This document shows positions 31,484-47,170 of a stretch of 64,000 nucleotides of DNA, in pieces; within the stretch, counting starts at the first letter, position 1, and every line of letters begins with the position of its first letter. The stretch comes from Shinella yambaruensis. Lineage in GTDB: Bacteria > Pseudomonadota > Alphaproteobacteria > Rhizobiales > Rhizobiaceae. Both the position numbers and the translations under genes were made by a program. The stretch spans positions 310,001-374,000 of the forward strand of contig NZ_JALJCK010000005.1 in NCBI RefSeq assembly GCF_022899355.1, written 5' to 3'. Below the pieces are notes generated by a model. That model had not been told where the DNA came from. It did not search any database and worked only from the letters and a program-made list of their open reading frames with translations.

Positions 31484-31557
31484 TGGGGAATAGTTCAACG
31501 GTAGAACGACGGACTCTGACTCCGTTAATCTTGGTTCGAATCCAGGTTCCCCAGCCA
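31484..31557 (+). tRNA. tRNA-Gln (anticodon CTG)
   Basis: Acceptor stem TGGGGAA/TTCCCCA with discriminator G and encoded CCA. Anticodon stem ACGGA/TCCGT encloses loop CTCTGAC, giving anticodon CTG (reads CAG). The T-arm is GGTTCGAATCC. It also serves as the integration site of the following island: its 3' 39 bp are duplicated at 47132-47170. Confidence 0.97.
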
Positions 31558-31558
31558 A
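31520..31558 (+). repeat. attL, 39-bp core within tRNA-Gln
   Basis: Begins CTCCGTTAATCTTGG and ends CCCCAGCCAA; identical to 47132-47170. With one mismatch the identity extends six bases to the left (CTCTGA/CTCTGG). Crossing within this core keeps the tRNA intact. Confidence 0.93.
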
Positions 31559-35048: not shown

Positions 35049-35226
35049 CGTCGCCTTTCCTTTCCAGCTCTTCCTTTTGCGTTTGAACGGCTTGTTCCGC
35101 GACGAGGCGGTCCCTGCCCTCCAGCCGGGCCGCTGGAAGCGTGAACGCCTGCACATAGGCGTAGACCACCACGCCACCGAGGACCGCGCCTGCGCCGATC
35201 TTCAGGCCGTCGATGAGGGCGATCAC
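34945..35226 (-). CDS. Rz-like inner-membrane spanin
   Basis: This 93-residue protein starts with GTG (MIALIDGLKIGAGAVLGGVV), whose start codon overlaps the preceding stop as GTGA. One N-terminal transmembrane helix (AVLGGVVVYAYVQAF) is followed by a charged coiled coil (ARLEGRDRLVAEQAVQTQKE). This is the i-spanin plan. The o-spanin gene is nested in its 3' part in another frame. It follows the muramidase remnant, the standard endolysin-Rz-Rz1 order. Confidence 0.72.
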   Translation of the reverse strand: MIALIDGLKIGAGAVLGGVVVYAYVQAFTLPAARLEGRDRLVAEQAVQTQKEELERKGDDAKLQRMSDFDLCVAYLGRVPECGSLVVLPVREE

Positions 35227-35717
35227 GATCCGAACTCCGTCTTCAGATCGCGCACCGCCTTGGCGAGATCGGCCCGGCGCTTGATGCCGTAGATGGCGAA
35301 TCCAACGATGACGGCGACAATCGCAAGCTGGACGCGCCAGTCGAGATTGCCGAAGGCGGCGATGGGCGCGCCGATGGCGGTCAACAGCCAGGTCCAGACG
35401 GTCTTGCTCTTGCTGGCCGGCGTCTTGAGCTCGCCGGGATCGACGACCACTGGTTTCTCGATGACCACAGGCTCCGGCTTGGGCTCCGGAACGGCGACGA
35501 CCACCTTGCCGGCAGCCCTCACCTGGTCGAGAACAGCCTCAACCTTCTCGGGCGCCACGAGCGCCTTGTTGAGCTTGTCGCCCATGTAATAGGACGAGCC
35601 GCGCGGCACGTCGCGGTGCGCCCCCTGGGTTGGCGCAAGGACCGGGAAGGAAGCCCACTCCTGCGCCAGACGCTTGCCGAACTCAGTGCAACTGATCCTG
35701 CCGGCGGCGACGCCAGA
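35223..35717 (-). pseudogene. 5'-truncated phage muramidase with membrane tail
   Basis: The frame begins abruptly at a stop codon (35718) without a start: SGVAAGRISCTEFGKRLAQEW followed by ASFPVLAPTQGAHRDVPRG and SYYMGDKLNKAL, which resembles the C-terminal part of GH104-type phage lysozymes. A Pro/Val-rich linker (VPEPKPEPVVIEKPVVVD) and a transmembrane helix (VQLAIVAVIVGFAIYG) follow. The catalytic N-terminus is missing, cut exactly where unrelated cargo DNA begins, so the product is inactive. An internal ATG at 35609 could give a 128-residue membrane fragment. Confidence 0.7.
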
Positions 35718-35823: not shown

Positions 35824-36252
35824 ATGAGTGGATTCAATCCAAACTCGAAGACCTTAGCAGCATGCATTGCAGAACTTGAGGCTTTCCGTAAAGCACGCGG
35901 CCTCGATGACAAGGCAATCATCACGTCGCTCGATTTCCCGGATATCTGGCGGACGAAGGAGCTTTCGGTAAGCAACGTACCGGGCGGCTTCAACAAGATC
36001 ATGCTTCCGTTTTTCACAGACGGCCCGGCAACTTTCTACATCTCATCTGCCGGTCCATACGTGAAGGTCCCTCTTCACTCGCACGACGAGGGAGCAGGAA
36101 TTCGCGTCATAATGTCGGGCTCGATCATGTACGAAGACAAGGAGCTCGAGGCGGGAGGCTGGATGTACCTGAAGGCTGGAGCACCCTACCAGTTCACCGT
36201 CGGGCCGCGCGGCGTGTCGATGTTCTACTGCTACCGATGCTGCTGCGCATAG
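35824..36252 (+). CDS. Cupin-fold protein with Cys-rich C-terminal tail (cargo)
   Basis: This 142-residue protein has a helical N-terminus (KTLAACIAELEAFRKARGLD) and a cupin core with motif-1-like PLHSHDEGAGIRVIMSG and motif-2-like GGWMYLKAGAPYQFTVGP. It ends abruptly in SMFYCYRCCCA, four Cys in eight residues. Strong GGGAGGGT site before ATG. It lies on the strand opposite to the phage genes, in DNA of lower GC than the surroundings, and leads a two-gene unit with the next gene. Function unknown; a metal or peptide-maturation role is speculation. Confidence 0.75.
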   Translation: MSGFNPNSKTLAACIAELEAFRKARGLDDKAIITSLDFPDIWRTKELSVSNVPGGFNKIMLPFFTDGPATFYISSAGPYVKVPLHSHDEGAGIRVIMSGSIMYEDKELEAGGWMYLKAGAPYQFTVGPRGVSMFYCYRCCCA

Positions 36253-36268
36253 GACGCGGGTGGCGAGA

Positions 36269-36706
36269 ATGAAAAAGGTGGATTCATTCACGGCCTTTGA
36301 GAAGATCAGAAGCGATCCGAACAATGCCGGCAGAACTTTCTCAGTCAGCAAGGATATCTTCGATCATTTTAGCGAAAAACTGCGCCAGTCGACACGAGAA
36401 ATTGGCGCCAAAGAAGCGAGTGAGATCGAAGATCTAATTGGAGCTGATCCGGGGAAAGGTGCCGGAACGACGAGAGATGCGACATGCGAGAAATGCAACA
36501 CGGCTTTCAGCCTGTCGGATCACGTCGCATCTGCTCTCCTGGCCGGAAAGCACACGGCCCCCGAAATGGCGAGCTTTTTCCAAGGCAACGACTACTGGTT
36601 GACAGTCGACACCAAGGAAAAACGCGAGACGATCTGTCCTCATTGCTACCGCAGAGGGGTGATCATACACTGCTGTTATATTTTTAGCAGGTACGCATAC
36701 GCGTAA
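36269..36706 (+). CDS. CxxC protein with Cys/aromatic C-terminal tail (cargo)
   Basis: This 145-residue protein has a helical N-terminal half, then TCEKCNTAF (about 72) and ICPHCYRRG (about 124), together a candidate zinc-ribbon or rubredoxin-like knuckle. It ends VIIHCCYIFSRYAYA. The ATG at 36269 lies 17 bp after the cupin gene stop. It shares with that protein a CYR triplet and a Cys/aromatic terminal tail. I recognise no family. A precursor or partner of the cupin protein is possible but unproven. Confidence 0.65.
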   Translation: MKKVDSFTAFEKIRSDPNNAGRTFSVSKDIFDHFSEKLRQSTREIGAKEASEIEDLIGADPGKGAGTTRDATCEKCNTAFSLSDHVASALLAGKHTAPEMASFFQGNDYWLTVDTKEKRETICPHCYRRGVIIHCCYIFSRYAYA

Positions 36707-36777
36707 GACATTGAACCGGCGCGCAAGTAGACGACCAAGTCAGCCTACTCGCGCGCCGGCGTGCCATGATACGTTAG

Positions 36778-37428
36778 CTAAGTGCCACACCAGGGTTTGC
36801 GCTGGCCTTCCCATGTTCGCGCAAGGCCTTCTGCCACAAGCCTGTCGCCTAGTGACTGGCCGTTCCGGATCAGAATGCGCAGGCTTCGGCCGTATTGATC
36901 GGTGTCCCTATCCGAAAGGGCATGCATCTCGAACGGTCCCGCGCTTAACAGGGACTGCAAGCGATGCTTGGCTTTTTCCCCGAGCGCGAGCTCCTTCGCG
37001 CATTGAAGACTGCCGATTTCCGGCATGTCGATGTCGGCAATACGGACCTTTTGTCCTTCCAGCCAGAACGTGTCCCCGTCCACCACACAGGTGACGCGCT
37101 TTCCCCCCTTGCAAAGAGGGAATGCCTGGTTCACGCGCTGCTGCTTCCGCTGTGGTTTTGCAACCGCAAACACCTCTTCAGGGGCTGTGACGACCTCTGC
37201 CGGATCAACATCGTCCACCACCGTGCCGGCGATCGATGCTTCCAATGTCGATGCGACGGATAGCCCGGCATTTAATGCCCACTGCGACGCGGCCGAAATC
37301 TGACCCCACCCAGCGCCGATAGCAAACACCCCGACGAATGCGGCAACTGACGCCGAGAGCACCAGCCCAACGAACCGCCGGCGCTCTTTGCGCCTTGCAT
37401 CTTCAAAGCTCACCACAACCAACGGCAC
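36778..37428 (-). CDS. Membrane-anchored thermonuclease (SNase) family protein
   Basis: This 216-residue protein has one N-terminal transmembrane helix (about 20-41) and a periplasmic SNase-like OB-fold domain from about 105: VVDGDTFWLEGQKVRIADID, GEKAKHRLQSLL and DQYGRSLRILI. The canonical D/E/R catalytic set (VDGD, IDMPE with Arg, Arg in YGRS) is largely preserved. It would degrade DNA/RNA outside the cytoplasm. Common in rhizobial genomes; here it sits in the island as cargo on the phage strand. Confidence 0.85.
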   Translation of the reverse strand: MPLVVVSFEDARRKERRRFVGLVLSASVAAFVGVFAIGAGWGQISAASQWALNAGLSVASTLEASIAGTVVDDVDPAEVVTAPEEVFAVAKPQRKQQRVNQAFPLCKGGKRVTCVVDGDTFWLEGQKVRIADIDMPEIGSLQCAKELALGEKAKHRLQSLLSAGPFEMHALSDRDTDQYGRSLRILIRNGQSLGDRLVAEGLARTWEGQRKPWCGT

Positions 37429-40677: not shown

Positions 40678-42465
40678 TTAGCTGGCCGCGGACGAAGTCG
40701 TCTCTATCGTGAGAAGGCGCGCCAGAACATCTCGCGCTTCAATCGGCAGAATGTCAGGGTATTGTCTGAGCGGTCCGTCGATGATCGCATGTAGAAGATT
40801 GCCCTTAATGTTGTTAAAGGCCGACCGCACCTGAAGCTCGTAGACATGGTCATCAGTCTCAAGGCATCGCCGGTCTATCTCCAGCTGAAAGCCTCCAAGG
40901 TATTGGCACGCAACCTTTTCGCCAATGTCATTGAAGATCGCCCTTGTAACTTTGTCGACGACATTCTGCAGGGTTTCATGTGTTGCCTTGCGAAAGTCAT
41001 CGAACATGTAACCGCTTGCTGGAAGGCCTATTTTTTCCAGGTAGACAGGCGAGGAGTGAACAATCAAGGCCGCGACGAGCAGCGGGTCTAGTAGGACATT
41101 CTCCATGCCGTCCCTTACGCCATCGGCCAGGACCATGATCCTGTCTTTCGCAACGCTCTTCGTCTTTCCATTTGAAAGATCGGAATCGACAACCCCGTAG
41201 ATGGTCTTGTTGCCAGAGCTTGACAGGTAGTCGACCAATTTGATGACCCTGTCTTTGCCCTCCGCGCCACTCGCGCCCGTGGAAATAAAATCCAATGAGC
41301 GGCCAGGAGGCAGATACGTCTCCAGCAATGTGTAGAGTTTTCCGTAGGTAACTCGATCCTTGTCGCTTTCGGTAAAAACCTGCCGTCGAGCATCATAGTC
41401 GATGGCCAAGGTCGGAACGCCAACGGTCAGCGCGTTCAATGCCTCCGCCTTCGAAACCTTCCGAAGGCCGGGCTGATCGGCTTCCATCACATAGATTGAC
41501 TCTTCCGGAGCGAGAGCAACCATCGTCGGGGAGTGCGTAGTGGCGACAACGCAGATGCCGTGTTTCTCGACAAACACCTCCTGGATTAGCCTGAGAATTC
41601 GTTGCGCCATGGCCGGATGAAGGTGAGCATCAGGTTCATCTAGGAGGAGTATCGAAGGCAGAGACAGCTTCACCATTCTCTCGCTCGCGTTGAATAGCGC
41701 AATTACGAAAGACAACATTATCTTCTCGCCCGAACTCAGAGTTTGCATGGTCAAACGCTCGCCTGAAATGCGGCGCCGCATGTACGGGTAATAATCTCCC
41801 ATGTCCAACATATTGGGCCCAACCACCTCAATGTTGAGGTCGGCATCAGTTAGAAGCCGATTCAATATGTCCCATGGCGGCTGTCCGTAGCGGGCATAGA
41901 ACTCCTCCAGAGTAAATGCCGGCGCCCCCTCCTCTCTCTTTACAATCTCCTCGTGGCGCATCCGCCTCCAGGCGACAAACAGGTGCGCAAAGGAGTGTTG
42001 GAACATTCCCATTTGAGGGGCATAGTACATAAATGCCGCGTTGAAATCCTCGCGGGTAATCTCCGCCATAGTCTTTCCGCTGGTTCCAAATTTGAACGAG
42101 ATCAATTCTCCAGTGGGAGACTCGAAATGAAAGACGGCATCTGGTCCGTCTTTCGGGAGCATTTCAGGATGCTCCGCACGCATTGTCGAAAATTCCTGCC
42201 ACGCTTCTTGCCGCACATCAGACGGAGCGGCAATCCCAGTGGGGGCCAGTTCGCTTGGCGTCATATTGATGCCGCTATGCATTAAAATTTTATAATGCGC
42301 ATCGATCCCATCCACGTCCGCGGAAATATCGCCCTCTTGAATTGCGGTAAGAAGGCGCGTTTTTCCTGCGCCGTTTAACCCTGTTATTAGAGTAAAATTA
42401 GGAAGTTGAAGGGTGGCAAAGGGATGGAGCGGAGGCAACGGATTGTTCAAATGCAGCTCTATCAT
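40678..42465 (-). CDS. AAA-ATPase/TOPRIM (DUF4435-like) protein, candidate anti-phage gene
   Basis: This 595-residue protein. ATPase half: Walker A GLNGAGKTRLL (29-39), ABC-type signature TLSSGEKIML (about 242-251), Walker B SILLLDEPDAHLHP (271-284), and H-loop TTHS (309). C-terminal half: TOPRIM-like acidic motifs FTESDKD (about 364-370), GVVDSDLSNG (424-433) and GMENVLLDP (453-461). The plan matches OLD-like and fused AriA-AriB (PARIS) defence proteins. Intact, on the phage strand within the island. The family is inferred from motif order; activity is untested. Confidence 0.75.
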   Translation of the reverse strand: MIELHLNNPLPPLHPFATLQLPNFTLITGLNGAGKTRLLTAIQEGDISADVDGIDAHYKILMHSGINMTPSELAPTGIAAPSDVRQEAWQEFSTMRAEHPEMLPKDGPDAVFHFESPTGELISFKFGTSGKTMAEITREDFNAAFMYYAPQMGMFQHSFAHLFVAWRRMRHEEIVKREEGAPAFTLEEFYARYGQPPWDILNRLLTDADLNIEVVGPNMLDMGDYYPYMRRRISGERLTMQTLSSGEKIMLSFVIALFNASERMVKLSLPSILLLDEPDAHLHPAMAQRILRLIQEVFVEKHGICVVATTHSPTMVALAPEESIYVMEADQPGLRKVSKAEALNALTVGVPTLAIDYDARRQVFTESDKDRVTYGKLYTLLETYLPPGRSLDFISTGASGAEGKDRVIKLVDYLSSSGNKTIYGVVDSDLSNGKTKSVAKDRIMVLADGVRDGMENVLLDPLLVAALIVHSSPVYLEKIGLPASGYMFDDFRKATHETLQNVVDKVTRAIFNDIGEKVACQYLGGFQLEIDRRCLETDDHVYELQVRSAFNNIKGNLLHAIIDGPLRQYPDILPIEARDVLARLLTIETTSSAAS

Positions 42466-42645
42466 TTCAATCCCCGGTGCGCATAACCACGAGTATATAA
42501 CCACTTTTTCAATCGCCTTGCTACGGGCGGAACGTCTAGGAAGCGGGGGCAACACGCCTGCTCAGCGGAGGATTGCGGGGCGGCCAATTCAGCACAAATT
42601 TCACGCCGCCATTGCAGAACGCATAGATCGAACTAGACTTTACAA

Positions 42646-45257: not shown

Positions 45258-45539
45258 ATGATAAGGTCGTTCAAGGACAAGATGACCGAGCAGGTCGCGA
45301 AGGGACAGAACCCGAAGAGTTTCCCGGCCGATCTGCTCAAGGTGGCACGGCGCAAGCTGGTCATGCTCGATAACGCTGCTGCCCTTGAGGACTTACGTGT
45401 TCCGCCGGCCAACCGACTTGAGGCCCTGAAGGCTGACCGGGCCGGCCAGCATTCGATTCGCGCCAATGACCAGTTTCGCCTTTGCTTTCGCTGGGTGGAT
45501 GGCAACGCGGAAGACGTTGAATTTGTCGACTACCACTGA
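45258..45539 (+). CDS. higB: HigB/RelE-type toxin
   Basis: This 93-residue protein is of the HigB plasmid-maintenance toxin class, which cleaves mRNA at the ribosome: MIRSFKDKMTEQVAKGQNPK..., ARRKLVMLDNAAALEDLRVP, GQHSIRANDQFRLCFRWVDG. The toxin precedes the antitoxin by 11 bp, the usual higBA order. Its role here is probably stabilising the island. Confidence 0.88.
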   Translation: MIRSFKDKMTEQVAKGQNPKSFPADLLKVARRKLVMLDNAAALEDLRVPPANRLEALKADRAGQHSIRANDQFRLCFRWVDGNAEDVEFVDYH

Positions 45540-45550
45540 AGGAGATAGCC

Positions 45551-45841
45551 GTGACCCTGCTTGCTTTCGCTATCCACCCTGGCGAAATCCTCGATGAAGA
45601 GTTCCTGAAGCCGCTGAACATGAGCGCCGGGGCACTCGCCAAGCGCCTCGATGTACCGCGCACCCGCATTGAGCGGATCGTGAAGGGCGACACTGCCCTC
45701 ACGGCTGACACCGCTCTGCGTCTTGCTGCCTTCTTCGGCAATACCCCGGAGTTCTGGCTGAACCTCCAGCGCGCCTATGACCTTGCCGAGGCGAGCAAGG
45801 TTGTTGACGTGTCGCACATTCGCCCGCTGGAAGCTGCGTGA
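45551..45841 (+). CDS. higA: HigA-type antitoxin
   Basis: This 96-residue XRE-family HTH starts with GTG: HPGEILDEEFLKPLNMSAGA, LAKRLDVPRTRIERIVKGDT, typical of HigA/VapI. It neutralises HigB and represses the pair. A GGAGATAGCC site lies just upstream. Its stop overlaps the GTG of the integrase as GTGA. Confidence 0.9.
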   Translation: MTLLAFAIHPGEILDEEFLKPLNMSAGALAKRLDVPRTRIERIVKGDTALTADTALRLAAFFGNTPEFWLNLQRAYDLAEASKVVDVSHIRPLEAA

Positions 45842-47034
45842 GCGTCCGTAAGGCACCTGGACCACGCCGAAGGGCGAAGAGAAGACTGCCTGGGTCGTGG
45901 ACTACGTCGACACGACCGGCACGCGCCGCCTCAAGACCTTCAAGCTGAAAAAGCAGGCCGACCAGTTCGCCGCGACGGCGACGGTCGAGGTGCGGGAGGG
46001 TATCCACGTCGCGGACAGTGCGACGATCACCCTTCACGAGGCGGGAAAACTGTGGCTGAAGTCAGGAGACGCCGCCGGGCTGGAGCGCACAACGATGGAC
46101 CAGCGCCGGCAGCACCGTGAGCTGCACATCGTCCCGGTCGCCGGGGCGGTGAAGCTCACAAAGGTGACTGTGCCGTGGATTCGGTCGTTTCAGGATGAGT
46201 TGCGGGAGGGAGGTCGTTCACCTGCAATGATCAAGCGGGTGACCGTGAGCCTCGGAAGCATCCTCGCGGATGCACAAGGCCGCGGGCTCGTCGTGCGCAA
46301 CGCGGTTCATGAGTTGTCAAAGGCACGATCGGGAACGAAGAAGTCGGAGAAGCGCGCGAAGGTAAAGCTCCGGGGCGGCGTGGACATCCCGACGAATGCC
46401 GAAATCCGGCAAATACTCGACGCCGCCGAAGGCAGATATCGGCCGCTGCTGGTGACGATGGTCTTCACGGGGATCAGGGCGAGCGAGGCGCGCGGCTTGC
46501 GGTGGGAAGACGTCGATCTCGCCAAGGCGCAACTGCACGTCCGGCAGCGGGCTGATCGCTACGGCGAGGTGGGTATGCCGAAGAGCGAGGCCGGGCAGAG
46601 AACGGTTCCTCTTCCCCCGATGGTCGTTAACACGCTAAGGAATGGAGGCTCGCTTGCCCGAAGAGCGAGGCGGGGCTGGTGCTCCCGAACTCAGCCGGCA
46701 ATATCGAATATCACCAGAACATGCTCCAGAGGGGCTTATGGCCGACGCAGGCGTCGGCAGGGTTGGTGGTGGCGAGCGGGAAAAAGGATGAGAAAGGTGA
46801 GCCGATCATGGTGCCGAAATATTCCGGTTTCCACGCGCTCAGACATTGGTACGCAAGCTGGTCGATCAATCGGAAGTCAGATGGGGGGGGCTGGAGCTGC
46901 CGGCGAAAACCGTGCAGACGCGGATGGGCCACAGTTCCATCCAGGTGACGTTCGACACCTACGGGCACCTGTTCCCATCGACGGACGAAGGAGCCGAAAT
47001 GGCCGCCGCGGAGAAGGCGCTTTTCTCTGTCTGA
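45838..47034 (+). pseudogene. Tyrosine integrase of the island, multiply frameshifted
   Basis: Restored product of about 398 residues with the phage-integrase plan: SAM-like domain (TLHEAGKLWLKSGDAAGLER) and catalytic domain with TGIRASEARGLRWEDV (Arg), FHALRHWYASW (His-x-x-Arg), MGHSSIQVTFDTYGHLF (His and Tyr). Frame breaks occur near 45850 (after MSVRK), near 46648 (AGGAATGG) and in the 8-G run 46883-46890; each is cured by one added base. The longest single frame (45897 on) lacks the C-terminal active site, so the island cannot excise with it. Confidence 0.85.
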
Positions 47035-47131
47035 GAGGTCGGATTAAGCATTCCTGAAATGTTGGTCAGCAACATGGATGCAACATGGCGCCAATAATGC
47101 TAACAAATTCAAAAGCCGTAAGAACCTCTGG

Positions 47132-47170
47132 CTCCGTTAATCTTGGTTCGAATCCAGGTTCCCCAGCCAA
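47132..47170 (+). repeat. attR, 39-bp duplicate of tRNA-Gln 3' end
   Basis: Identical to 31520-31558. The 5' half of a tRNA is absent, so this is not a gene but the right attachment site of the island, about 100 bp after the integrase end. Confidence 0.93.

Follow-up and report, generated by a model that had tools for sequence, protein, structure and literature searches.

Why does a decayed prophage carry a small cupin whose chain ends in a run of cysteines, and does this protein act alone or together with the product of the next open reading frame (ORF)? The question is raised by a 64,000-nucleotide stretch of a Shinella yambaruensis contig (NZ_JALJCK010000005.1; hereafter the window), in which a preliminary description had suspected a two-gene peptide-maturation unit with modified or metal-binding Cys ends. 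Two adjacent small ORFs with the ends it gave are indeed present, on the strand opposite to the phage genes:

35824..36252, + strand: cupin gene, 142 amino acids, ending FYCYRCCCA (from the ORF, a weak Cupin_7 match, an AlphaFold model and an alignment)
36223..36249, + strand: codons of FYCYRCCCA (from the secondary structure of the model and the alignment)
36269..36706, + strand: orphan ORF of 145 amino acids from its ATG, with two CxxC motifs, ending IIHCCYIFSRYAYA

We propose, at a rough probability of 0.4, that the cupin is a single-gene cargo (a phage moron) of an apparently undescribed Cys-ended subfamily, whose end, together with a two-histidine pocket, would take up a soft metal or a thiol-reactive molecule. 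Judging from its conserved residues, the protein is most plausibly engaged in soft-metal or thiol chemistry.

The window protein matches Pfam Cupin_7 weakly over residues 44-127 (E 0.0039; 17.4 bits, cut-off 27), and this is its sole Pfam match. The earlier statement that neither protein resembles a known family thus needs correction for the cupin; the CxxC protein has no credible relative in the collections covered. Weak Pfam cupin matches were obtained for all nine family members scanned; six of them matched Cupin_2 at E ≤ 1 (best 1.1e-07), and the best Cupin_7 match among the other members was 7.2e-05. The AlphaFold model of the window protein (mean predicted local distance difference test score, pLDDT, 88.7) predicts a double-stranded beta-barrel of the cupin superfamily. 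Its final barrel strand spans residues 122-137, so YCY would belong to the barrel and RCCCA would lie beyond it; the pLDDT averages 86 over residues 131-140 and 51 over residues 141-142. These cupins bear no specific name in any of the four family libraries that were scanned, and the open-access literature listings searched showed no account of a Cys-ended cupin. The Cys-ended proteins apparently form an undescribed subfamily.

The end is conserved well beyond Shinella. In an alignment of 13 proteins, the Cys end, (F/C)YCYxCCCA with small variants, occurs in nine: eight carry Y-C-Y-x-C-(C/S)-C-(A/G) and the ninth, L010, is shortened to YCCCA. A degraded Embleya copy, kept outside the alignment, provides a tenth such end (CYCYCCCCA), and in L009, L010 and L011 the sequence runs on past the Cys run. 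The four aligned proteins without the end are a Chloroflexi protein (HCYG), a same-genus relative (YCCYCTK) and two distant proteins (YLYRFFA). Because the same positions are hydrophobic in distant relatives, the tail amounts to a Cys-substituted last strand with an extension. The codons of the tail Cys and Tyr vary among relatives while the residues remain constant, and between the window cupin and L008 the nonsynonymous divergence is 0.10 against a saturated synonymous divergence of 2.3. Since the Cys/Tyr run persists despite synonymous codon changes, it is reasonable to suspect that the cupin terminus binds metal or has a thiol role. On the cupin side, the preliminary description was therefore right to single out the tail as a candidate for such a role; this end does not vary freely.

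S35, P62, H85, H87, R94, G99, G111, W113, G119 and Y122 are invariant in all 13 proteins, with H85 and H87 as the barrel histidines (HxH). The textbook cupin metal site comprises motif 1, HxHx(3,4)E, and motif 2 with a further His. Set against this consensus, the aligned proteins keep HxH (13/13) but have no Glu at position 91 or 92 in any row and carry a Tyr at position 122, which we take to be the usual place of the motif-2 His. Glu89 is present in all nine tail-bearing proteins and absent from the remaining four; as the proteins are related by descent, this association reflects one or few events. Small single-domain cupins (PF07883, Cupin_2) are alike in size and barrel, whereas the subfamily is set apart by the conserved YCYxCCCA end and Glu89.

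In the mechanism that we envisage, the thiol-rich end and the two-histidine pocket (H85, H87) would act together in trapping a soft metal ion or a small thiol-reactive molecule for the barrel to hold or turn over, and the resulting stress protection of the cell would pay for the carriage of the cupin. A more specific version, which we regard as rather unlikely, is that the textbook ligands (motif-1 Glu, motif-2 His) are replaced by the two His, Glu89 and the C-terminal thiolates, with the end serving as part of the ligand set or as an oxidisable substrate, so that the protein would be a self-contained and horizontally mobile metal or oxygen switch. The plasmid of microcin Mcc1229 encodes a cupin of unelucidated role, MctC, whose gene shares an operon with that of a protein rich in Cys at its C-terminal region (PMC8853679). 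There, unlike in the window protein, the Cys-rich end belongs not to the cupin but to MctA, and the system includes an ABC transporter; the likeness is one of description.

The cupin family is rare and patchy. Relatives occur in Rhizobiales, on a Methylobacterium plasmid, in one IMG/VR virus, in Aquabacterium and Aestuariibacter, and in metagenome-assembled genomes of other phyla; four loci come from such genomes, in which mis-binning may have led to false phylum labels. A scan of 84,980 species genomes with two short peptide patterns, which misses some relatives, returned seven loci. Within its own family the cupin was matched in three of 199 genomes, including its own; two of 398 phylum genomes and two of 21 genus genomes gave matches, each time its own genome and one divergent cupin, and further genome searches returned the starting genome alone (1/196, 1/289 and 1/200). 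The window cupin found one plasmid, from M. bullatum, to which the Aestuariibacter protein as query added a distant Microvirga match and a partial Embleya match. Among viral contigs, a tail DNA pattern including the stop hit six stretches, of which two were the cupin (one virus in two IMG/VR samples) and four lay in other frames; a looser tail pattern hit 12 stretches without any cupin. Profile A1 had no match there, while the L022 protein and profile A3, the modelled alignment of which omits the M. bullatum protein and L016-L018, both returned the same single virus. Three cupin queries against phage records found no match. The settings of the cupin are mixed: some copies lie on prophage-like segments, on a plasmid or on a viral contig, others in chromosomal surroundings.

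Some divergent cupins were seen on the way. In another genome of the same genus, L017 (1300-1851) encodes a cupin ending GYCCYCTK near a NusG-type gene. In two genomes, L016 (874-2793) and L018 (2397-4357) share a gene order in which a GNAT gene is accompanied by a distant cupin that lacks the Cys end, and this in turn by a gene whose protein contains a Cys-rich stretch (SCCRKPSGVCRCGS); the third protein of L016 has no Pfam match.

Could the protein be a sensor instead? As a redox or metal sensor akin to the ChrR cupin domain, it would change its binding to a host regulator upon Cys oxidation or metal loss. The anti-sigma factor ChrR consists of an N-terminal zinc-binding anti-sigma domain and a C-terminal cupin. 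In contrast to this cupin-like domain (PF12973, Cupin_7; structure 3o14), the window protein is single-domain and lacks the anti-sigma part, its 142 residues giving Pfam only the cupin match, and it differs further in falling below the Pfam cut-off, in its Cys-rich end and in Tyr122 at the usual place of the motif-2 His. A sigma-factor gene was not noticed next to the cupin either. The gene order on the M. bullatum plasmid is umuD, Y-family polymerase, cupin and thermonuclease, with an exact GAAC-N7-GAAC site 5' of umuD; sites with up to one mismatch number seven in this locus against 8.5 expected, which is not above chance. A linkage of the cupin with such SOS neighbours (umuD, polymerase, GIY-YIG, SRAP) was rejected, as tblastn found none of them at 15 other loci or in the window. 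We consider a sensor role doubtful.

The island itself bears on a further alternative. The cargo lies in a 15.6-kb prophage-like segment flanked by 45-nucleotide direct repeats of tRNA-Gln, with phage-type genes on the - strand on both sides of the two ORFs; the first 25 kb of the window are covered to 89% by a Shinella zoogloeoides replicon at 88.0% identity. Its features are:

31514..31558, no strand assigned: left direct repeat, the 3' part of tRNA-Gln; island boundary
35223..35703, - strand: phage endolysin remnant, C-terminal part
36716..36759, no strand assigned: strong hairpin without a T-run, between the orphan ORF and the convergent SNase gene
36778-37428, - strand: SNase-family nuclease, convergent with the cargo (PF00565, E 6.3e-08; phrog_452, endonuclease)
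40678-42555, - strand: AAA/ATPase of 625 amino acids (ATPase-Toprim_I-B of retrons, E 2.6e-22; AriA of PARIS, E 2.2e-20)
45897-47057, + strand: phage integrase ORF, catalytic domain matched in part by Pfam
47126..47170, no strand assigned: right direct repeat, 98% identical; island boundary

The integrase seems decayed, because only profile positions 5-74 of 172 are matched. The two ORFs do follow a truncated lysozyme, as first described: the remnant shares 114 of 163 residues with L051, a prophage of the same genus, and this similarity stops at about 35703, 121 bases before the cupin start. L051 matches the window across the endolysin remnant and not across the cargo. In nine Rhizobium phage records there are short matches to this region, and seven of the eight listed phage rows name a function, always lysozyme or SAR endolysin. 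The GC content is 0.555 for the cupin ORF and 0.507 for the CxxC ORF; the endolysin fragment (0.649), the SNase gene (0.601) and a chromosomal gene (0.698) are higher. The cargo DNA is thus lower in GC, as had been noted, but since other island genes are equally low (fibre gene 0.563, ATPase gene 0.526), low GC marks the island more than a two-ORF unit. The hairpin (z -4.10 and -5.44; none of 200 shuffles folds equally well on either strand) is a possible terminator, which the terminator scan did not call, and the promoter scan found no site 5' of the cupin gene. At 45258-45841 (+ strand), a HigB-like toxin gene (E 4.3e-19) precedes an HTH_3 gene, and the two make up a toxin-antitoxin pair of the HigBA type.

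That the cupin is a prophage-borne anti-phage defence or counter-defence factor would agree with the ATPase-TOPRIM-like gene, likely a defence gene of the same island, with the HigB and helix-turn-helix genes, and with the viral contig, where genes for a reverse transcriptase, PRTase-CE and AAA_21 lie close to the cupin. No PADLOC model, however, matches either the cupin or the CxxC ORF at E ≤ 0.01, and some copies lie among metabolic genes, as in Aestuariibacter, where the cupin adjoins a fructose-bisphosphate aldolase gene; we judge this role quite unlikely. On the viral contig (L022, 1197-3707), RVT_1 (E 8e-21) and PRTase-CE (E 2.2e-18) matches with a small unassigned gene beside the integrase form a retron-like set, and a 236-amino-acid ORF matches DUF4113 below the cut-off. 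The sole common neighbour seen, in two places, is an SNase (window and M. bullatum plasmid); the two are 32% identical over 92 residues, probably a coincidence, and linked transfer with the cupin was discarded.

To the adjacent CxxC ORF, a GTG at 36260 would add three amino acids; its GC by codon position is 0.47/0.46/0.59, and 8.65% of 2000 first-order Markov shuffles of its 518 bases contain an open frame of at least 148 codons. Its coding support is weak to modest. The protein found only itself in 199 family genomes and, in 397 order genomes, itself and four others (E 0.0018 to 0.0093 per genome), which is about the chance expectation for that number. These four were rejected as relatives, each spanning a different part of the protein; the one that looks longest, L036, matches 40 N-terminal residues at 42.5% without a CxxC, and the match in L038 contains a stop. 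Plasmids, phages and viral contigs gave nothing, the PDB gave nothing beyond short zinc-finger matches (best E 0.45), and the best match in Pfam, NCBIfam and PHROGs was Zn_ribbon_4 (E 0.018, below the cut-off). In tblastn over 54 fetched loci, including the other cupin loci, some of them short (3.4 to 20 kb), three of the four weak matches reappeared and none lay at a cupin locus. The ORF, apparently an orphan, may be young, decayed or not a gene, and is probably a bystander to the cupin.

What remains in favour of a pair is that the ORFs are adjacent, on the same strand and 16 bp apart, that both end in Cys and aromatic residues and that they lie within a hairpin-bounded stretch. The likeness of the tails (RGVSMFYCY and RGVIIHCCY) is at chance level, being matched by 342 of 1000 whole-protein shuffles and 214 of 1000 tail shuffles. 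A peptide-maturation unit of the RiPP type would unite a precursor and its modifying enzyme in locus after locus, but no other locus examined holds both genes, and no peptide-maturation-like gene was noticed among those neighbours of the cupins that were scanned. Given that the CxxC protein has no credible relative in the collections covered, that its ORF was not found at the other cupin loci and that the coding support is weak, a peptide-maturation or metal unit of two genes is unsupported and very improbable.

An odd sequence end thus becomes a testable feature of a rare cupin subfamily. Its terminal Cys-Tyr cluster is kept in distant bacteria, in a viral contig and on plasmids, together with one Glu and with a Tyr at the place of the metal-binding His. 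If the end joins the metal site, these proteins would represent a new design of cupin centre as well as a new type of mobile cargo made up of one gene.
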